Shown here piece by piece: positions 50,440 to 64,000 of a stretch of DNA of 64,000 nt; the first letter of the stretch is position 1; the number at the start of each line of letters is the position of its first letter. The stretch covers positions 1,619,270 to 1,683,269 of the forward strand of contig SMSO01000007.1 of assembly GCA_004764695.1 (NCBI GenBank), given 5' to 3'. Both the position numbers and the translations under genes were made by a program. A model generated the notes under the pieces. The model saw only the letters and a program-made list of their open reading frames with translations, was not told where the DNA came from and did not search any database. This stretch comes from Schizochytrium sp. TIO01 (Eukaryota; Sar; Bigyra; Thraustochytrida; Thraustochytriidae).

Positions 50440-53400
50440 CTAAGCATGTTCACTCCCCTCTTGAGCACTCCATAAAGCTGCATAGGCGCCATCATTCTTG
50501 GCAAGAAGCTCTTTATGAGTACCCTGTTCGACAGGAACTCCATTAGAGAAAACAACAATCTTGTCAGCATTCTGAATCGTAGTGAGTCGATGAGCAACTA
50601 CGAGAGTTGTAGCCTTTAAATCGTTGATCATTGTATCAAGAGTCTCCTGTACAATACGTTGAGACTCATTGTCCAAAGCGCTTGTAGCCTCATCAAGTAG
50701 CAAAATTTTGGGACGGCGCATTAAGCATCGTGCCAAGCAAATCCGCTGTCGCTGCCCACCACTCAGCTGGCTGCCTTGAGGACCAACATCGGTCTCGTAA
50801 CCTTGAGGGAACTGCATGATAAAGTCATGAGCATTAGACTTCTTGGCAGCAGCTTCTACCATCTCCTGCGTGACAACAATGTCTCGTCCATTAGCATCTG
50901 GCCCAGCCGGGATACCATAGGCAATGTTTTCAAACACTGTGGTGGCAAAAAGCTGGCCTTCTTGCTGTACATATCCAATTTGTTGGCGTAACCACGGCAC
51001 GTAGGCTTCTTTAGTTTCTACACCCCGGATTTTCACGGATCCGCCTGACGCATCATAGAAGCGTTCCACTAAACTAATGCAAGTGGACTTGCCAGAACCA
51101 GATGCGCCAACTAGGGCCACAGTTGTACCGCCCTTGATGTGCAAGGTCATGTTATCATAAATGAGAGCATCGGGACGGCTTGGATAGGCAAAGGACACTC
51201 CATCAAATGTGATGTCGTCTGAAACAGCCGAATCTTCTTTGAGACCAGATTGATCCTCCGGGTCGATTTTGGACTTGCGGTCGAGAACGCGGAATACATT
51301 GTTGATACCTACACTAGCCTTAGCAAGATCCGGTGCCATCGCAGCAGACTGACCCATACCGAAGCCCACCATGAAGATCACCATGATCGAAGTGAATACA
51401 TCCACAAAGGAGTAGCCTTTGTACACAATGAGGCGGGCTGCATAGAAGAACGCAACAGAATATACAGAAAAGGTAACAGCCTGGGAAAAGCCAAAGCCAA
51501 AGCCAGCACTGATACCTTTCTTAACGCCCAGCTGGGAGGGGCCCACAAGGAATTCATCGTACAAATCAACAATCCAAGTACGTAGGTTAAATGCGGTGAC
51601 TGTACGTACACCATAAATAGCCTCGGTAAGGACTTGACTGGCAACAGACAGGGCTTTCTCGTCCTCCTTGGCGAGACCACTCATGATCATTGTTTGCATC
51701 GCTCCACCTACAATGACCAGAGGCAACATAGCCATCATGACAAGAGTAAGCTGCCAGCAGTAGAAAAAAGAGATCACGGTGCCAGCTACAATTGTCACAA
51801 AGTTCATCACAGCAAGTCCAAGGCGATTCGTAATACTGGCCTTGACCACAGATGCATCAGAAGCAAGCTTAGAAGTCAGCCCTCCAATGCTATTCGTGCG
51901 ATCATCATAGAAGCCTATTTCCTGGCGCAGTAATGTCTGAAAGAGCTCCGCGCGAATTCGCGTTGTCATACGTTCTCCAATGATTCCAAAATAACTAAAT
52001 TGGGCCCAATAGCCAATCGCTGTATCTATACCTAGACCAATAAAGCAGAAGATGTACGTGTGTGACTTCTCCGTCACAAGCTCTTGTGACGGAAAGAAAT
52101 AGACAGTTGCAATGCCTGAAAAAATGACGCCATAAACAGGCATAATAGCACCGCTGACTAATGCTGACAAGATAGCAGGAATATAAAGTAGCTTGTCAGG
52201 CTTGCTATATTCAAAGAGACGACCCGTCGAAACCTTGTAAAGGTCTTCCTTATCCTTCTTTTTTTTCTTCCCAAAGCAGCCGCCATTAGAGCTTTCATCT
52301 TCCTCTTCAAGTTCATTCTCAGAATCTCGGACATCTTTGTATGACGCAGTGGAAGGAATTGGAGAAGCCGATAGTGTGCACTTGGAGATCGCTGGCTCAC
52401 TTTATGGGACATTGTACTCCCTCTTGGAGACCATGATTCTTCAGGGTTCGAAGCACTGCTTATGTGAGATCCAAACGAACTTGCAATTCTTCGTCCTGTT
52501 CCATAATCTCTTCGATGCCGATTTCATCAGTGTGGTGGTCATCGTGTCCCTGAGATCTGCTAGCCGCGGCGACCAGCGCAGAGTACATACCATCTATTTT
52601 CATGAGCTCAGAGTGGGAACCTTGCTCCAAAACTCCACCAGCGTTTGCACCGAGGACAACAATCTTATCTGCCGTGCGGACAGTTGACAGACGATGGGCA
52701 ATAACAACAGTCGTCCGACGGCGCTTCTTAAGAAGATTATCAAGAGCTCGCTGTACAGTGCGTTCGGACTTGGAGTCAAGAGCTGAGGTGGCCTCATCAA
52801 GAATAAGCGTGTTGGGGTCACGGATGATGGCGCGTGCAATAGCAATTCGCTGCTTCTGGCCACCTGAAAGCGAAGATCCGCGCTCACCAACGAAGGTGTC
52901 AAAACCTTCAGGCAAGTCTTTGATGAAATCATAGGCATTTGCGGCGCGTGCAGCGTCCTCAATCATTTGACGCGTAACAGTAACACCAGGTGCAGCACCT
53001 TGAGCGATGTTTTGCGCCACAGAGGTGGCGAAGAGCACAGGTTCTTGGCCAACCAGACCTATCTGTGCACGGAGAGAGGCAACGTTGAATTCTCGGATGT
53101 CCCGACCATCAAGAAGTACTCTGCCAGCTTCAGGATCGTAAAAACGCATCATAAGCTGGGTCACTGTACTCTTCCCGCAGCCGGAACCCCCAACAAGAGC
53201 AGTGGTTTTATTCGGTTCAATGTCAAGGTTTAGACTCTTGAAAATTATTACCTCTCGACGGGCAGGATAGCGAAACGTGACATCATCGAAACGGTAGTAG
53301 CCAACAAGTTTGCTACTCTCCACTTCTGCGCCAGAGGTACCACTTGAATTAATTTCAGGTTCACGGTCAATAACCTGAAAGATCTTACCAGCGGCAGCGC

Positions 53401-54838
53401 GAGCATTAGTAAAGGACGACAAGCTTGGGGCAGCTTGCCCAATCGACATCGAGCCAATGATGATGGACCAAAAGCAAGCAAGGATGTCTCCCCCGGTGAT
53501 GCAGCTTCCAGAACCATCAGAATAGTTGCAACCACAATTACAAACAGTACATGAACAGACATCAGCCGGATTATTAAGTGTGAAAGAGTCGAGATAACTG
53601 GAGAACTGGCAACCCAGCGCGGTACCTTCTCTATAGCTCATAGACACACCAACCTGACAGTACTTCTGGAATACAGGATCCACACGCGACGCATCGTACG
53701 GATACTGTGCAGCAGCACTATCTTGGTCATCAAATACGATCTTGGTACCAAACCAGAACGCAAGCGCATAGCAAAGGAAGTATACACCAAAAGTGAAGCC
53801 CATGCCTATTCCTTGGGCATAAGACTTGCGAATACCTGCAAGTTCCGCACGGTCGAGCTCTTTGGTATAACGAGCAACAGTACGCCTCTCAATTGAATAT
53901 GACTGCACAGATCGAATAAGGGAGAATGCTTCCTCGGCTACAGCTCCTGCACGTGCGTAGGCCCCAAGGCTACTGCTTGTTGCCTCTGACATAAGCTTCA
54001 CCATCATAAAGCCGCCAAAGGCAACGAGAGGAGACACGGCCAAAACGACAAGGGTTAATTTCCAGCTGTTGACGAGAGCTATGATAAGGCCACCCAAAAA
54101 CATCGCAGCGAATTGAACACCCGCTCCGAGCTTCTCGCCAAGACCCTCACGTATGATAACTGTATTTTCAGCGATTTTGCTTGATAATTCACCAGGGTTG
54201 GATGTGTCAAACCAGCTGATTTCTTGACGCAGAATGGACGCCAAGTACAGCTTGCGGATGCGAAGAGTCATGCGCTCACTCATTATCGTAAAGAAAGCAA
54301 CCTGTCCAAAACCGCAGACAAAGCATGCTGCCATAAGATAGGCAAAAATCTTCGAATATTTGTCCCCTGCGGCAAGGATATCACCTCCGTTGAAATCATC
54401 TAAGAGGCCTCCAAGAATCAGCGAAAATACTGGAAATAATACACCAGTTCCACAAGCACAAATGGTGCCGGCTATCATAAGGGTTATATCAGTGCAATCT
54501 GAATACTTAAAGAGGCCTGAAATGGAGACAGGAGGTGCATCTTTCTCCTGCATGCCCTCAGCATCTTCATTTTTCCCTTTTCCAAAAAGCATCCTGAAGA
54601 ACCAGTATTTATCATCATCCTCAACATCATCCATTGATTTCCGTTGCACGGGTTTAGTGGTCTTAGTGGTCATGTCCAAAATAATCTCATCCCTGGTAGA
54701 GTTTGCTTGCGAATTGCTCACATCTACATTAGTCGCAACAATTGTACTATGTACATTGCCGGGAGTTAGAGATGTCGGCATACCAACTGTAGGCACTGCT
54801 GATGCAGTGCCATCATTGTCTTTATCAGTATGAATCAT
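50440..54838 (-). CDS. Full-length ABCB (P-glycoprotein/MDR-type) exporter, two exons
   Basis: Predicted exons 54838-52481 and 52380-50440 are joined across a 100-nt phase-0 intron (GTTCGT...CCAAG), giving 1,432 residues. The order is TMD1, NBD1, linker, TMD2, NBD2, the canonical full ABCB exporter of the plasma membrane. NBD1: Walker A GGSGCGKS (~550-557), signature LSGGQKQR (~657-664), Walker B LILDEATSALD. NBD2: Walker A GASGSGKS (~1211-1218), LSGGQRQR (~1325-1332), LLLDEATSALD. Both sites look catalytically intact. An acidic/Lys-rich linker (SENELEEEDES, then FGKKKKKDKEDLY) precedes TMD2. TMD1 holds an unusual ~75-residue extracellular insertion between TM5 and TM6 (~374-448) with eight Cys. 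The N-terminus is ~100 residues longer than human MDR1. The donor GTTCGT is weaker than other introns here; a frameshift is the alternative, but the join keeps frame and linker sense. Confidence 0.9.
52381..52480 (-). other. Predicted ABCB intron
   Basis: A 100-nt interval with in-frame stops between two perfectly matching halves of one transporter. It begins GTTCGT and ends CTCCAAG. The acceptor is the only AG that keeps the linker frame open after the last stop. Confidence 0.65.
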
Positions 54839-54995
54839 TGCGATAGCAAGCAAGCAAGTTTTCGAAGTTTGAGGTTTGTTTTGATGTCAAGAGACTTCAC
54901 AAAGCAAACACGTCCGATCAAAATATGATCAAGCCTTTCAAATATGGGATATTTTGTGACCATGTCTTAGATTTGACAAGAACTACATTGAGCCT

Positions 54996-57297: not shown

Positions 57298-58059
57298 ATG
57301 GCCAAGCTCGTAGCGATTCTGAGCGCAGATGCGCCTGCAGCATGGCAGCGTGCTGGTTTTGCTTTACGGGCAGAGCCTGTACCTCAATTTCTTGCTGAAA
57401 AAGGCTGCACTGCATGGTTGACGTTACCTACGCTAAAGGAAAACCTTGCAGTGGGCCTTGTTGCAAAGAATCATAGCCCAACGATCAATGTCGTGCACGA
57501 AAAGTCTGGAATCTTAGGATGGATCTGGAGCGGATCAGAGTTAAAAAGTGACATTGGAGCTTTTCCAACAACATTTGTGAATGAGAAAAATTGCAACTTC
57601 GAAGGCAGTCCTGAAACACACCCCAATGGCCTTATTGGCGTAGACCATATCGTCCTCAAAACTGCTGACATGCGAGCCACACTCGCTACTTTTGAAGCCC
57701 ATGGCGTGTCTGTGATTCGAGAGCGTAGCGATATCTACCCAGGCGTTCTGCAAGCTTTCCTGCGGCCGCAAAATGATACAATTATTGAGGTGGTCAGCTC
57801 TACGAAGGACCGAGTGGGCGGGAATACCATGGGTGGTATGCTGGACATTTCCAAAGAAGGAAATGAAGTATGGGGCCTCACACTGGTGTCAAAGGACATT
57901 GATAATACTGCAGATTTCTTGAGCCCCAATGTCAGCAAGATTCGCCAAGCTCAACAAAAAGGTCGAAAAATTGCCACTCTTCGCAACACGTCATTTGGGC
58001 TTCGTGTAGCTCTTGCCATTATGTCTCCGCACCTCAAAGCCGCTGATTCTAAATTATAG
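57298..58059 (+). CDS. VOC-family (glyoxalase-fold) protein, copy 1
   Basis: A complete 253-residue protein. The N-terminal ~105 residues form the first half (AWQRAGFALRAEPVPQFL, GWIWSG). The second half begins with a VOC beta strand DHIVLKTADM (His117), runs through QAFLRPQNDTIIEVVS (Glu164), then WGLTLVSKDI (~192-201) and ends GRKIATLRNTSFGLRVALAIMSPH. His117 and Glu164 sit where VOC enzymes bind their metal. Family members include glyoxalases, epimerases and dioxygenases; similar two-module proteins with the GRxIATxR...ALMSP ending are common in bacteria. No specific substrate can be given. A second copy follows 617 bases downstream on the same strand. Confidence 0.8.
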   Translation: MAKLVAILSADAPAAWQRAGFALRAEPVPQFLAEKGCTAWLTLPTLKENLAVGLVAKNHSPTINVVHEKSGILGWIWSGSELKSDIGAFPTTFVNEKNCNFEGSPETHPNGLIGVDHIVLKTADMRATLATFEAHGVSVIRERSDIYPGVLQAFLRPQNDTIIEVVSSTKDRVGGNTMGGMLDISKEGNEVWGLTLVSKDIDNTADFLSPNVSKIRQAQQKGRKIATLRNTSFGLRVALAIMSPHLKAADSKL

Positions 58060-58676: not shown

Positions 58677-59498
58677 ATGGCTCGTCTAGTAGGACTGGCA
58701 AGCAGTGACAAGGCGACAGCATGGCAGAGTGCTGGGTTCACACTCTGCGAAGACCCAGTGCCATCGTTCTTACGAGCTTTAGGCTGCTCTGCATGGCTAA
58801 GAATTCCAACACAGTCTATGCAAATGGCAATAGGTATTGGAGCCCGAGATAACTCTGAAAAAGTGGTCGAGAATGGTCTAGTAGCATGGTTTTGGAGTGG
58901 AATTCCAAAACCCCACGGGGACAGTATCCGCATTGGTGAGATCAAAACAATTTTGGTCAGTGAAGATGAAGTTGCACGCAGTATGGGGAGTGATATGGCA
59001 CACGACATCCATGCTAATGGGCTTGTGCGAATTGATCAGGTCGTTGTTCATACTTCAAATCTGCGTAGTGTTCTGAGCTCCTTTGTGGACGTAGGTGTTA
59101 AGGTACTGCGTAAACGGTCAGACCTTTTCGCAGGTACTACTCAGGCTTTTCTCCGGCCTTCAGACGATGTCATCATTGAAGTAGCGGCACCTGATGAAGA
59201 TGCTCCAGATCAGCGTGTGGTAAAACATTTTGCAAAACATGCTAAGCTCACCCACTTATGGGGTTTCACACTCGTTACAAACGACATGAACGCCACTGTT
59301 GCAGCCCTGAGCCCAAACGTTGGAGAGATAATTAAGGCAAAGCAACCCGGCCGCTTTATCGCACATGTCAAGCATCAAGCCTTTGGTCTTCGAACACCAA
59401 TTCCAATTATGTCGCAGCATATCAAAATCAACCGAGGGACCGAAATTGAGGCGCCACCTCGTTCAAGAACCACATTATCAAATACTAGTAGGATTTAG
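58677..59498 (+). CDS. VOC-family protein, copy 2, metal-binding His replaced
   Basis: A complete 273-residue paralogue of the preceding gene. It shares the start (MA[K/R]LV, AWQ[R/S]AGF), the paired-module layout and the end (LSPNVxxIxxAxQxGRxIAxxxxxxFGLRxxxxIMSxH), with a short Ser/Thr/Arg-rich extra tail. The strand that gives the His ligand in copy 1 reads RIDQVVVHTSNL here, so Gln121 replaces His, while Glu168 (VIIEVA) remains. A nearby His125 could compensate, but it is off register. It is either a changed-specificity enzyme or a catalytically dead paralogue. Its end converges on the next gene, 123 bases between stops. Confidence 0.8.
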   Translation: MARLVGLASSDKATAWQSAGFTLCEDPVPSFLRALGCSAWLRIPTQSMQMAIGIGARDNSEKVVENGLVAWFWSGIPKPHGDSIRIGEIKTILVSEDEVARSMGSDMAHDIHANGLVRIDQVVVHTSNLRSVLSSFVDVGVKVLRKRSDLFAGTTQAFLRPSDDVIIEVAAPDEDAPDQRVVKHFAKHAKLTHLWGFTLVTNDMNATVAALSPNVGEIIKAKQPGRFIAHVKHQAFGLRTPIPIMSQHIKINRGTEIEAPPRSRTTLSNTSRI

Positions 59499-59621: not shown

Positions 59622-62600
59622 TTAAATGCAAAATAAAAGATCTTCGATGTCTCCTGTTGAGGAGCTCGTGCCACTGCTTTGACTCTGACTTTCCATTCCC
59701 GTTGATATGGTAGATCTACTTGGTGCACGATTGCGCCGTATGTTATGCTGGCTTTTTGGACCAAATCGTGCAGTTATCTTATTGATTGCAACCAGCTGTA
59801 GGTGTTCGATCTCCTCGCGTTGAAGCTTCAGGTGAGGGAATTTGTTTGACAAACGATTAGAGAAATGAATTCGAATCATCTCAATGAAAACAGGTGATCG
59901 AAATTCTCGGAATCTTGGTTTTTCGGTGATATTATCCACATAGCTACGCAAATGAGGAAAGTTTCGATCCAAGATTGAGAATTTGTGTTCAGCCTCTATG
60001 CAGTCCTCAATGAAGCGAAGTTCTGAGAAAACGAGAATATCAGTCATGCCTAAGTCAGAACCGCATAAATAAGGGCCCGCTCCCTGTGACTCCTCCTCGG
60101 CTAGCATATCATCAAGGAGGCGAAGAATAGACTCTAGCTGCGCCAAATGGTACTTGTTGTTTTCTGGTGCTTCAGACATGCTACCAAATTCCTTCACGCG
60201 AATTTTCACTAGAGCTTCCCGCTCATTGCTTTTTACTAGGTCAGTCACTTGCAATGGACTATGTTCTGGATCTTCGGCGTCTCCATAGAATTTTGCAGTG
60301 AATAAAATTAAAAATGGCTCAGGATAATCAGGCATCGTACTCGTGAATGAATCCAAGCGTTCAAAATGAGCAAGCCAGGACGACACAGCTGGGAAGCCCT
60401 CCGAAGTAATGTTAAAATCATGGAACCAACTACAGCATACCTTTACTGTTCGCCAGATGGAGCAAACAAGTACAATATCGTTTACAGAGCAAGTGAATCC
60501 ATGCAGAAATGGGCCCGGAGTATTCCGAAGTTGATTCTCAATGCCTCCTAAAAGACTCTTGAGAGCACCATACTTTGAAGAGCGCTCAGGGTCATTTGTT
60601 TTGGCTTTGAGATAGGCCTCGCAAATCTCATTGCTGGCATTGAACAAATTCATCTCTGATAGATCGGCTAGAGAATCCATACTACCAATATGCAAGGGAG
60701 TATCAAGAGGGCCATATAATTGCGGGTGAAGTTGACGAAGGACATTCAGAATCATCTGTGACTCACTCGTCCATAAGCCATTCCAGTAAATGCTTGGACA
60801 CATTCCATTCGAAGTAGCAGTAAACCACTCTGGCTTGTCGAGTAGGTCAATTTTGATGGTCTTAAAAGGTATACAGGCCTCTGCCGCAACCATCTCAACA
60901 ACACGTGAATAGGGGCATACCTTTACTAGAAACTCACCGCGATGTACGCAACCAACCGCTAAGTAAATGGTGTTCATTTCAAAGGGCGGGCCAGATACAC
61001 CACCTTGCACAGAGATCGAGCCATCACTTGCCACACGCACACTGTCATGACCATAGCTTGCAATAATTCGATGGATCATTGCAGCTTCAGCCTCAAGACG
61101 CTCTTGAGTCACCTGGCAGCGTAGTGGTTGCCAATCTGGATACTCTTTGGCAAAGTTTTCGCAGGCTATTAGCACAAGAAAGGTCTCAGCTCCTTCATGT
61201 TCGTAAGAGGCTTGCATGGAAGGTGTTCGCATCATTGCGTGGATGTAGCGTTCCAAACGTCCAAGCCCGTACTTTTTTAGTGAGAAACCATCCATCGGTC
61301 GTAAGATATAGTGCACGAAAAACAAAAGCTGTGGCGCAAGAATGAAGTCATCTAGACCTGCTTGAGTGTCACCAGAGAGGAACGGATGCCACGAAAAGCC
61401 ATCAACTTTGCACCCTGCCTGATATTCTTCAAGCAATTTATCCAAAGGCTTTAATACTTTCAGAACTCGAGACAGTCTTTCCATATCAACAGCATCACGC
61501 TGCGGTTCGGCACCTGTGCCATCTGGGCGCATCATGTAGCTATACACAGATAATTTAATTTCCTCACTAAGTGCAAGACACTCATCAAACGAATGATGTT
61601 GGGGCAGCTTCTCTGACTCTTTAGGATAGAGCTCGTACAGTAAACGTAATACTGCATTTGCGCCTATGGTAACACGCTCTTGAGGACCGGGCCCAAGCAT
61701 CATAGGGAGCTGGTCTGGCCGAACCCAATCCGGGCAATCCTCCACATCAACTAGAACAATTTCATAAGAAACCCCGAGAGCCCGTAAGAGAACTTCAATC
61801 TTTTGTGACGACGGACATGAACGTGCCAAACGATCCCCACGATGCTTGACACTCACGCAAAGATGCACTTGGTCACCGTCGCACCGGGGTCTTACCTTGA
61901 CTTTTCGATCACGCTTTAGTTTACAGTATGTGGTACGTTGACCAGGTGCATCCCGGCTCTTGTTCAAAATATCACCTGTGCCCTTACCATGCAAGTTAAC
62001 AATAACCTTACCGCGTGTTTCCTCTGGATTCATTTCAAGCATCTCTTGAACTTGCTCACGGGTAGCAAAAGCAAGCAAGTGCGCATGGCGCTCTAGAGCA
62101 TCAAAGAATGCCCACGTTGACACAGGAAGATTGTGTGGACGATTCAGGCGTTCAGCTTGTTCGCTAAATTTATGATGCAGATAGCGCATGATGTCACGCG
62201 AATTAGAGGTCCATTTGTTTTCAAAGAACACAGCAGGTGTTCGCGCAGACGGAACCGCATCTGTAAACCACGCAGGTTTGTTGTCCCAATCTATGTCAAT
62301 GATTTGGTACGGGATACCTGCTTCCATGATGAACATGGTGACCACCCGAGAATATGGGCATAACCGAACTAAATAATTCTTTACTCGCACACAGCCATAA
62401 CAAATGTAGACAACATTAGCAAGAGGCTCAGCTGGCAGAGAAGTTTGCACTAAGGCTCGTGATGTGTCATTGCGAAGCTCTTCCTTGCGTTTGCGCCGCC
62501 GTCTCCTAGAGTGAGAGGCGACACCACTCCAAAGCTTATCTCGAGCTTGTTCTGAGTCACTTGCCTCGGACTCAGAGGGGATATCAGAATCCCCGCTTGC

Positions 62601-63980
62601 ATCAGCAAGCGCCTCCATTAATTCTTCATGGGTAATACCTACAGCAGCCTGCACAGCGTCGAATTTGTCAAAGTTGGCGCGAATGCCTTTCCCGCCAGCC
62701 CGCCTTTCCATCATATCGCCAAAAAGAATACCTCCAAGTTCTAGGTCTATTCCTTTATATTGTGTTGTACAAACAAGCATATCATTATAGACAGAGTCAT
62801 GCCCCACAAAGCTGACACTTAAAACAATATTCGCCATTTCATCTGGATCAAGTAAAAATCTTCGCAATGGTGACTTTTGATCAATTTCATGAATAATAGT
62901 AGCCACAGCCGTAATGGTTGGGGGGAAGCTTGCTTGTAAATTCTCGTAGCTCACAAAATGTTCTCCCTCCTCGGTGTCGTGAAATCGTAATAACGCTACT
63001 GCCACACGGGTCTCGTAAACAAGGTTGACACGTCGATTACCTACACGAATTAACAGTGTAGGCTTCCCATCACGGGTTGTAACGAGAGCCTTCTTGCTAA
63101 AAACGATGTCTGGTTTAGGAATCTGAAATTTTGATACAACAACAGACAAAACAATCACATTGAGCATAAGACCAGTAAACTGTTGAGCGCAGGCAAGTGT
63201 ATAACAGCCGTACGAACTCGGGAGACAAGGCCCATAGCCAAGTGTTAGTACATTGCTTGTTGCATAGACAGCAGCAATTCCCAGAGTGCCTTGTAGGAAC
63301 GTATCCATTCCTGATTGGCACTCAATACTATTTGCAATAGGCCAAGTGAGTAGTGACCAAAAAAAGCAAGTAATTACATACGAGAGCAAAGACAAGAAAA
63401 ATACAAAGGCCCAACTCCAGTCCAAGAGTACATAATACCAGTTTTTGGCCTCATACCACTTTGACGACCCTGTCCCATGCAGAGCAGATCGTTTCTTGCG
63501 TTTTCCTGATTCAATTTGATCTGGCGCATACCGGCGCTGGGTGTATGAATGTTTATTCTTACGTCGCAGGCGTTCGACACGAAATCGTCGCCATTCGCTC
63601 AAGGAGAGCCCCATGTGATGAGTCTGAAGTCTAGGCATGCGACACTCTTTGCATACATCTTCATCGTTGTGCCGGTGGAAGTGAGAACCAAACCTGGTCT
63701 TATTCCTGCGCCTTAAGCCGGTTTCCTCGTTATGAGTACTCATTTCACTTGCAGATCTAGGTAGGCTGCCCATGGAATTCCTTCGAGTGTTCGGTCCCAG
63801 TGGAAGTTCGCCACTCTCGACAATCATGGCATTCTCCTTGGGATTTTCCGGCTCCTCATCGCTTGATGGTGTGTTACCCATCTGTACTTCATCTGGCGTG
63901 TACACGCACGTTTGCAATGCCGAAATGGGTTCATTTGCGTGCTCACCCCCAGAAGTTGCATTTGACTTCGATCCTGGCAT
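59622..63980 (-). CDS. Inward-rectifier K+ channel fused to three DHAR/CLIC-like GST modules
   Basis: A single-exon 1,452-residue protein from ATG 63980 (AACGATG). Residues 1-180 are a polar N-terminus with a His/Cys-rich patch (~100-124) and basic stretches. The Kir unit covers ~180-445: TM1 ~186-212, extracellular C221 and C252/C259, selectivity filter TLGYG (246-250), TM2 ~263-283 with Asn274 at the rectification site, the PIP2-region PK (288-289), and cytoplasmic domain signatures FSKKALVTTRDGK and RVGNRRVNL. A Ser/Asp-rich then Arg/Lys-rich linker (~460-505) leads to three GST-like repeats at ~522-690, ~704-960 and ~1003-1380. Each opens with a thioredoxin-like strand and a redox Cys motif: CPYS (C541), CPSS (C722), CPYS (C1022), followed by a DxxDKPxWF-type segment and an alpha-helical GST C-domain. 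The redox module pattern matches plant dehydroascorbate reductase and animal CLIC. A thiol- or glutathione-gated K+ channel is inferred. Nothing breaks the frame between the parts. Confidence 0.9.
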   Translation of the reverse strand: MPGSKSNATSGGEHANEPISALQTCVYTPDEVQMGNTPSSDEEPENPKENAMIVESGELPLGPNTRRNSMGSLPRSASEMSTHNEETGLRRRNKTRFGSHFHRHNDEDVCKECRMPRLQTHHMGLSLSEWRRFRVERLRRKNKHSYTQRRYAPDQIESGKRKKRSALHGTGSSKWYEAKNWYYVLLDWSWAFVFFLSLLSYVITCFFWSLLTWPIANSIECQSGMDTFLQGTLGIAAVYATSNVLTLGYGPCLPSSYGCYTLACAQQFTGLMLNVIVLSVVVSKFQIPKPDIVFSKKALVTTRDGKPTLLIRVGNRRVNLVYETRVAVALLRFHDTEEGEHFVSYENLQASFPPTITAVATIIHEIDQKSPLRRFLLDPDEMANIVLSVSFVGHDSVYNDMLVCTTQYKGIDLELGGILFGDMMERRAGGKGIRANFDKFDAVQAAVGITHEELMEALADASGDSDIPSESEASDSEQARDKLWSGVASHSRRRRRKRKEELRNDTSRALVQTSLPAEPLANVVYICYGCVRVKNYLVRLCPYSRVVTMFIMEAGIPYQIIDIDWDNKPAWFTDAVPSARTPAVFFENKWTSNSRDIMRYLHHKFSEQAERLNRPHNLPVSTWAFFDALERHAHLLAFATREQVQEMLEMNPEETRGKVIVNLHGKGTGDILNKSRDAPGQRTTYCKLKRDRKVKVRPRCDGDQVHLCVSVKHRGDRLARSCPSSQKIEVLLRALGVSYEIVLVDVEDCPDWVRPDQLPMMLGPGPQERVTIGANAVLRLLYELYPKESEKLPQHHSFDECLALSEEIKLSVYSYMMRPDGTGAEPQRDAVDMERLSRVLKVLKPLDKLLEEYQAGCKVDGFSWHPFLSGDTQAGLDDFILAPQLLFFVHYILRPMDGFSLKKYGLGRLERYIHAMMRTPSMQASYEHEGAETFLVLIACENFAKEYPDWQPLRCQVTQERLEAEAAMIHRIIASYGHDSVRVASDGSISVQGGVSGPPFEMNTIYLAVGCVHRGEFLVKVCPYSRVVEMVAAEACIPFKTIKIDLLDKPEWFTATSNGMCPSIYWNGLWTSESQMILNVLRQLHPQLYGPLDTPLHIGSMDSLADLSEMNLFNASNEICEAYLKAKTNDPERSSKYGALKSLLGGIENQLRNTPGPFLHGFTCSVNDIVLVCSIWRTVKVCCSWFHDFNITSEGFPAVSSWLAHFERLDSFTSTMPDYPEPFLILFTAKFYGDAEDPEHSPLQVTDLVKSNEREALVKIRVKEFGSMSEAPENNKYHLAQLESILRLLDDMLAEEESQGAGPYLCGSDLGMTDILVFSELRFIEDCIEAEHKFSILDRNFPHLRSYVDNITEKPRFREFRSPVFIEMIRIHFSNRLSNKFPHLKLQREEIEHLQLVAINKITARFGPKSQHNIRRNRAPSRSTISTGMESQSQSSGTSSSTGDIEDLLFCI

Positions 63981-64000
63981 CGTTCCAGACTCAACATCGT

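Follow-up and report, generated by a model that had tools for sequence, protein, structure and literature searches.

One open reading frame of the thraustochytrid Schizochytrium sp. TIO01 (assembly GCA_004764695.1, contig SMSO01000007.1) encodes a K+ channel of the inwardly rectifying (Kir) type and, downstream of it, an array of cysteine-type glutathione S-transferase (Cys-GST) modules that resemble dehydroascorbate reductases (DHARs) and chloride intracellular channel proteins (CLICs). The two parts share one frame and are fused at the level of sequence. The frame, here called the Kir-GST gene, lies on the minus strand at the end of a stretch of 64,000 nucleotides that was analysed as a whole and is called the window (G000:C6:1619270-1683269; genome of 64.06 Mb in 37 contigs). 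The architecture is unusual, and to judge from the sequence a function for it is plausible. Several questions arise. Are channel and array parts of a single gene? Which modules keep the residues of a glutathione site? What might such an array do to a channel?

A single frame from channel to GST array

Read on the minus strand, positions 59622..63980 contain no stop codon from the channel into the GST part, which confirms what an earlier note on this DNA had said of the open frame. The protein of 1452 residues that this note counted from its chosen Met was not borne out: the frame is still open at the window edge, and its first ATG lies beyond it, at window coordinate 64451 (L003:3721, minus strand). 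With the DNA beyond the edge included, the frame has 1628 codons from stop to stop and the protein about 1609 residues, 151 of which lie outside the window. Residue numbers are those of P0001 and exceed those of the earlier note by six. The features are as follows.

59622..64000, minus: Kir-GST gene inside the window; the frame runs on to the ATG at 64451
63459..63998, minus: region N-terminal to the first transmembrane helix (TM1), residues 1-180, polar and basic near its end (sequence reading)
63108..63446, minus: Kir transmembrane part (TM1, pore helix, TM2), residues 185-297 (phmmer to KirBac3.1; hydropathy)
63231..63245, minus: selectivity filter TLGYG, residues 252-256 (motif, alignment)
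62646..63107, minus: Kir cytoplasmic domain, residues 298-451 (Pfam IRK_C)
62769..62771, minus: Cys410, sole Cys of the Kir cytoplasmic domain (alignment with the Cys of Kir2.1 TTQCRSSY)
62418..62645, minus: linker, acidic then basic, residues 452-527 (coding score)
62160..62417, minus: module 1, GST N-domain of thioredoxin type with CPYS (Cys547), residues 528-613 (GST_N_2; DHAR2)
61878..62159, minus: module 1, GST C-domain remnant, residues 614-707 (block with conserved G and D missing)
61044..61877, minus: module 2, degenerate GST with CPSS (Cys728), residues 708-985 (GST_N_3 under its cut-off; DHAR, CLIC1)
60213..60971, minus: module 3, DHAR-like GST with CPYS (Cys1028), residues 1010-1262 (DHAR1; GST_N_3)
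59859..60212, minus: orphan GST C-domain without an N-domain, residues 1263-1380 (GST_C_3)
59625..59858, minus: C-terminal tail with a Ser-rich end, residues 1381-1458 (sequence)

Twelve Pfam families match the whole protein at E up to 1, nine of them above their cut-offs: GST_N_2 (2e-24), GST_N_3, IRK_C (1.8e-14), GST_C_3 (8e-11), GST_N, GST_C_2, CLIC-like_N, GST_C and glutaredoxin. At the same limit GST_N_2 matches in three stretches and GST_C_3 in two. Whole-protein scores sum over repeated modules; the pieces were also scored singly. A search of solved structures found KirBac3.1 over residues 185-422 (E 2.5e-17) and DHAR1 over residues 1027-1224 (E 1.2e-13). NCBIfam gave two matches for module 1, both far below their cut-offs, and none for the other four of the five pieces compared.

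The linker between the two parts reads as coding in its own frame (0.219 per codon) and negatively in the two other frames, by a codon score for which 12 further long frames of the window, not checked as genes, served as the training set. Residues 446-531, which are 440-525 in the numbering of the earlier note, score 0.218 per codon; among 8998 placements of equal length outside the used frames, which overlap and possibly include unannotated exons, 387 are open and 4 of the open ones reach this score. Of 47 sliding windows over the whole frame, 45 have a positive score, and in all 47 the frame beats the two other frames of its strand. Several conserved domains score below the linker, so that the codon score alone gives no ranking of coding strength. 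With the donor patterns used, the linker holds no GT..AG pair of a length divisible by three; the tail of module 1 holds eight such candidates, none of them with a pyrimidine-rich acceptor at the threshold set. A false join would have had to produce an in-frame junction together with matching codon use.

Unequal Cys-GST modules

The three modules are unequal: module 3 aligns over both halves, module 1 keeps its N-half, and the site of module 2 is degraded. Scored alone, module 3 matches DHAR1 at 8.9e-15 over the N- and C-domains and GST_N_3 at 8.6e-7 (29.6 bits), with GST_C_3 below its cut-off (14.5 vs 21.6 bits). Module 1 matches GST_N_2 at 2.3e-13 (51 bits) and DHAR2 at 1.3e-8, and CLIC-like_N and glutaredoxin fall below their cut-offs; it lacks the block of the helical domain that bears the conserved G and D, as seen against 36 of 60 bacterial GSTs fetched, which are included in an alignment of 40 rows (A3). 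Module 2 just misses the GST_N_3 cut-off (3.3e-4, 21.4 bits vs 22) and matches DHAR at 2e-4 and CLIC1 at 0.003 over positions 11-220 of the piece, its alignment with CLIC1 and CLIC4 being weak. As single pieces, modules 1 and 2 match no GST_C family of Pfam at E up to 1, and an all-helical C-domain was thus not found in every module. The orphan C-domain that follows module 3 matches GST_C_3 at 1.1e-8 (35.6 bits) and resembles the C-domain of module 3 (2e-7), the likeness to module 2 reaching only 0.52.

CPxS occurs in all three repeats, as the earlier note had stated: CPYS, CPSS and CPYS at Cys547, Cys728 and Cys1028, its residues 541, 722 and 1022. Its DKPxWF-like segment for each repeat stands for module 1 (NKPAWF, the lysine kept) and module 3 (DKPEWF) and fails for module 2, which has DCPDWV with Cys in place of the lysine and GAN in place of the D/E-S pair. 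Likewise, three redox GST modules were too many: taken singly, modules 1 and 3 exceed the cut-off of a GST_N family, whereas module 2 falls short with its degraded site and module 1 has its N-half only. The profile searches it had proposed did find the IRK_C, GST_N/C and CLIC-like families, with no match for PF01007, the Pfam model of the Kir transmembrane part, and with CLIC-like_N below its cut-off in the single piece. Beyond these motifs, module 1 has TP and NS, and module 3 has CP, whose proline falls at the cis-Pro position, together with E-S.

The modules are related to one another. Modules 1 and 3 share 30% identity over 172 residues (E 6e-23), and modules 2 and 3 share 22% over 272 residues (E 9e-10); shuffling gives z values of 35.1 (1 and 3), 15.8 (1 and 2), 14.5 (2 and 3) and 8.7 (last piece and 3), and of 4.4 for the last piece and module 2, a value for which at least one of 500 shuffles was higher. 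The N-domains of modules 1 and 3 are 42% identical in amino acids over 84 codons, with CPYS and KPxWF kept. Between these two modules, agreement at third codon positions is 0.31 against 0.26 in shuffles (reached by 145 of 1000), and at second positions 0.63 (reached by 0 of 1000), with first positions also well above shuffles. Conserved first and second positions beside nearly random third ones are what an old duplication under protein-level selection would be expected to give.

To which class do they belong? The literature is cited here by PMC number. In AtDHAR2, the glutathione contacts are given as Lys47, Lys59, Val60, Asp72 and Ser73, beside Cys20 (PMC5307357); Cys1028, the lysine of DKPEWF and the E-S pair of module 3 occupy the places of Cys20, Lys47 and Asp72/Ser73. 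The lysine is not decisive, since in OsDHAR the K47A variant has activity like the wild type, whereas K8A and C20A are markedly lower (PMC4726096). Among plant Cys-GSTs a nine-residue insertion before the active-site motif marks the DHARs (PMC4138524), and by eye all three modules have a long loop ahead of that motif. Plant DHARs and animal CLICs are thus resembled in CPxS, in the long loop before the active-site helix, in KPxWF (modules 1 and 3) and in the two-domain form of module 3; they differ from this array, in which three modules stand in tandem and are attached to a channel. The VP and DS motifs of the DHAR class (PMC4138524) are replaced by TP/NS in module 1 and CP/ES in module 3, and for this reason the modules are called Cys-GSTs of the DHAR/CLIC group, not DHARs. 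Among solved structures, Sll1902 of Synechocystis (PDB 9r0w) resembles both module 3 (E 1e-5) and, less closely, module 1 (E 6e-4); its PDB chain has 399 residues, with no channel part known, and it is one of six GSTs of that organism (PMC11673678).

The Kir part and its relatives

The TLGYG filter and the RDGK and RVGN-R signatures named in the earlier note are all present, the latter two inside the Kir cytoplasmic domain. Scored alone, the Kir piece matches IRK_C at E 1.9e-15 (57.4 bits vs a cut-off of 22.5) over positions 1-158 of the 174 of the profile, an end that most bacterial matches share approximately. The transmembrane part is recognised because it aligns with KirBac3.1, not through PF01007; its hydropathy peaks lie at residues 199-217 and 270-293, a third and weaker peak at 734-752 being in module 2. 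G254 and Y255 are common to all 27 other Kir rows of the alignment, a count that is partly circular as 21 bacterial rows were picked by the filter pattern. With KirBac3.1 and Kir2.2 the protein shares the TM1-pore-TM2 arrangement, the T-x-G-Y-G filter and the cytoplasmic domain, whereas GST domains are absent from the matched Kir channels of known structure. Cys410 has a Cys in its column in one of the 27 other rows, and in Kir structures this place is near the G-loop gate.

The signals of affinity are split. Cys227 aligns with a Cys that is present in all 5 eukaryotic rows and in none of the 22 bacterial ones, and it points to eukaryotic Kir, whereas the pairwise scores (KirBac3.1 4.8e-18 vs Kir2.2 5.4e-16) and a post-TM2 stretch of KirBac length, judged by eye, point to KirBac. 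In a tree of 28 rows the Kir part falls outside a clade of animal and own-genome Kir sequences (support 99/99), a placement that the program flags as unsure; 21 of 26 bacterial loci were used, L108, L113, L118, L126 and L129 being dropped because the pore pattern was not found.

A search of the genome with IRK_C finds at least four Kir loci, and the other three (L001, L002 and L092) have frames of 575, 902 and 1208 residues. All three have the Kir cytoplasmic domain and L001 and L002 also a transmembrane domain of the PF01007 type. They differ from the Kir-GST gene in having no GST match (Pfam at E up to 0.01; L002 scanned over 858 residues) and in long inserts that split the cytoplasmic domain. 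From its matches (Kir2.2 1.3e-32, the prokaryotic channel 1p7b 1.2e-22, KirBac3.1 2.6e-18), L001 is plainly a eukaryotic-type Kir. The inserts of L002 (G000:C34:569023-572382) and L092 (G000:C35:2540800-2546500) run to hundreds of residues; that of L002 includes a stretch like a C2H2 zinc finger (E 5.4e-4, below cut-off), and a similar motif is seen by eye in L092.

No second copy of the fusion was found in the genome by a whole-protein query, which returned only itself (3 candidates scored) and is insensitive, having missed the three Kir genes that the family search finds. A query with module 3 led back to this gene's own modules and to nothing else. Of the 22 GST_N_2 matches in the genome, two are modules of the Kir-GST gene. 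Thirteen of the other 20, in nine stretches, look by eye like glutathionyl-hydroquinone reductase, zeta, mPGES-2, omega and sigma GSTs, none of these 13 being joined by eye to a Kir; the frames that hold the last 7 are 137 to 309 residues long. CLIC-like_N finds one other gene above its cut-off, with module 1 below it. In a 696-residue frame (L093, G000:C33:1606000-1611500) two glutathionyl-hydroquinone-reductase-like GSTs stand in tandem by eye, with two GST_N_2 matches, one of them below cut-off, so that GST tandems also occur elsewhere in the genome.

Outside this genome, 77 of 386 genomes sampled from a phylum centred on a cyanobacterium have IRK_C (80 match rows), as do 15 of 398 from a phylum centred on Mesorhizobium (15 rows) and 3 of 9 in a preliminary survey, one of the three being counted again among the 77. 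The prokaryotic frames have 77 to 440 residues, apart from one of 702, in which IRK_C is the only family over the 611 residues scanned (Pfam, E up to 0.1). A bacterial Kir-GST fusion as the source was considered and rejected: no sign of one was seen across the 784 prokaryote genomes sampled, in which the IRK_C frames are, by their length, too short to hold a full-size GST. A profile of the module alignment found 60 GST loci in bacterial contigs, the frames being extracted from at most 50 codons before the match. Viral contigs gave three pattern-matched stretches with the whole protein, none of them confirmed, a single-protein query reaching close relatives only; phage records gave no match to the Kir part. 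Channel fusions are not foreign to stramenopiles, since Phytophthora is described as having many novel domain combinations, including K+ channels whose four monomer motifs share one exon (PMC2705460).

Around the gene, a frame of 1260 residues with EF-hand matches lies upstream on the same strand and ends 287 bases before the Kir-GST ATG, and the end of a convergent frame downstream is 123 bases away from the Kir-GST stop. The plus-strand frames 57298-58059 and 58677-59498 form a tandem pair, related-looking by eye and convergent with the Kir-GST gene; the latter has a weak Glyoxalase_4 match (8.9e-5, below cut-off) and the former no match at E up to 0.001. Glyoxalase chemistry uses glutathione, and such a neighbour may be due to chance. 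On the minus strand at 50440-54853, two halves of an ABC transporter (797 and 576 residues) stand head to tail, separated by a stop codon and 289 bases, which reflects either an intron or a broken full transporter. The N-terminal extension outside the window (L003:3250-3721) contains MGTGSS, and residues 40-46, inside the window, are MGNTPSS; both resemble N-myristoylation starts, provided that an internal Met is used. Elsewhere in the genome, a PfaA-type synthase of omega-3 polyunsaturated fatty acids (L134/L135, G000:C4:608161-617209) scores above its NCBIfam cut-off with overlapping matches to one profile stretch, and the same model exceeds its cut-off in 0 of 14 control genomes. Among eukaryotes this type of synthase is characteristic of thraustochytrids. 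A search of the genome for lycopene cyclase PF18916 gave no match.

Possible action of the array and its rivals

By analogy with known systems, the protein may be a channel with a built-in Cys-GST array that senses glutathione or thiols, K+ flux following glutathione state, a reading to which we give somewhat less than an even chance. Tetramer formation, conductance, glutathione binding and the coupling with its sign are what we infer here. One polypeptide of about 1609 residues would comprise a Kir subunit, a flexible linker of some 76 residues and, after it, the tandem array; four subunits would form the K+ pore, and their arrays would be suspended beneath the cytoplasmic gate. Glutathione would be bound by module 3 and probably also by the N-half of module 1, each able to form a mixed disulphide at its CPYS cysteine, and module 2 and the orphan C-domain would be spacers or docking surfaces. 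Binding or oxidation would alter the packing of the array on the Kir cytoplasmic domain or, alternatively, the array would add glutathione to, or remove it from, a channel cysteine such as Cys410. K+ flux would in the end track glutathione state. The twelve redox modules per tetramer of the earlier note are overstated, as only module 3 keeps the glutathione-site residues and both halves; the residues allow four whole and four half modules with plausible sites, that is, four to eight.

The near-complete cytoplasmic domain (158 of 174 profile positions), the alignment of filter and pore with KirBac3.1, the match of module 3 to DHAR1 over both domains with residues at the glutathione-binding places of AtDHAR2, the CPYS and KPxWF motifs kept in modules 1 and 3 despite their age, and the coding-like linker favour a sensing channel. 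Precedents can also be joined: Kef is held closed by reduced glutathione (GSH) and opened by its conjugates (PMC10224563), Kir6.1 is held closed by glutathione at Cys176, with glutaredoxin reversing the oxidant inhibition (review, PMC11631806), and Cys-GSTs perform deglutathionylation chemistry (PMC4138524), so that an array may sense through module 3, and perhaps module 1, and act on the gate. If sensing is true, KefC and KefB are alike in placing K+ flux under glutathione control through a cytoplasmic domain; they differ in coupling K+ efflux to H+ influx and in sensing through a KTN (RCK) domain (PMC10224563), and the 12 Pfam families matched by the Kir-GST protein include neither an antiporter membrane family nor KTN/RCK. 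A bolder claim, which we hold to be doubtful, is that of a eukaryotic glutathione-gated K+ channel with sensor, enzyme and pore in one polypeptide, in which the Cys-GSTs would read the ratio of reduced to oxidised glutathione (GSH/GSSG) or conjugates and would target either a cysteine of the channel or its cytoplasmic gate, an independent counterpart of KefC. The claim that no channel of this layout has been described agrees with the best-ranked full-text matches in the literature, none of which has it, which is no proof of absence.

Several observations weigh against a sensing channel. PF01007 has no match at E up to 1 in either the whole protein or the Kir piece, and the Kir part has diverged far (identity at most 25%, with 5.41 changes per site on its end branch), so that it may not conduct; PF01007 misses L092 of the same genome too. 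A single Cys in the cytoplasmic domain is not unusual, the 22 bacterial rows having 0 to 2 and the three own-genome rows 5 to 7. The residue before the catalytic Cys (LCPYS, SCPSS, VCPYS) does not keep the Asp of plant DHARs (DCPFS), which is named as a dehydroascorbate contact (PMC5307357). Force would not necessarily pass through such a linker to the gate. With module 2 and half of module 1 degraded, a scaffold fits as well as a sensor.

In that case the array would be non-catalytic, placing the channel or holding partners, and its CPxS motifs would be leftovers. GST folds act as binding and clustering surfaces in EF1B-gamma and metaxins, and the array, which is larger than the channel, has lost the lysine and E-S pair in module 2 and most of the C-domain in module 1 and includes a C-domain without an N-domain; a scaffold does not readily account for CPYS and KPxWF persisting in modules 1 and 3 at 42% identity, or for a module 3 that aligns with DHAR across both halves, and we consider it unlikely, though a serious contender. 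The modules might instead be tethered repair enzymes that strip glutathione from channel cysteines such as Cys410, or that carry out detoxification on the spot, so that the channel continues to function in oxidising conditions. In favour are the deglutathionylating action described for Cys-GSTs (PMC4138524), the inhibition of Kir channels by S-glutathionylation (PMC11631806) and the alignment of the sole cytoplasmic Cys with that of Kir2.1 TTQC; a reactive Cys410 is a supposition, however, and a lone Cys may be chance given the bacterial counts. We regard repair as distinctly improbable.

That the frame yields two separate products, by a false join, by splicing or processing between the Kir and GST parts, or from an internal second transcript start, is very improbable: the junction comes from one assembly without reads, and the module 1 tail offers its eight GT..AG candidates, but a separate Kir would have no stop codon, the frame scores best in every sliding window, few placements reach the score of the linker, and the linker has no splice candidate of the kind sought. 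Least probable of all is a decaying gene, a former channel-GST fusion freed from constraint, which would suit the degraded modules 1 and 2 and the very long branch of the Kir part and is opposed by 1628 stop-free codons, by a coding-like score in nearly all sliding windows and by the keeping of the filter, the Kir cytoplasmic domain and module 3.

The Kir-GST gene would be a channel-enzyme fusion in a thraustochytrid, a member of a group cultured for oils. Redox control of K+ channels is usually ascribed to exposed cysteines on which free enzymes and small molecules act, and bacterial Kef is a known example of dedicated gating by glutathione. If the array is indeed a sensor, the protein would work like bacterial KefC, built from other parts. 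With a channel that carries its own Cys-GST array, deletion or mutation of modules could ask directly whether glutathione state gates a Kir pore.

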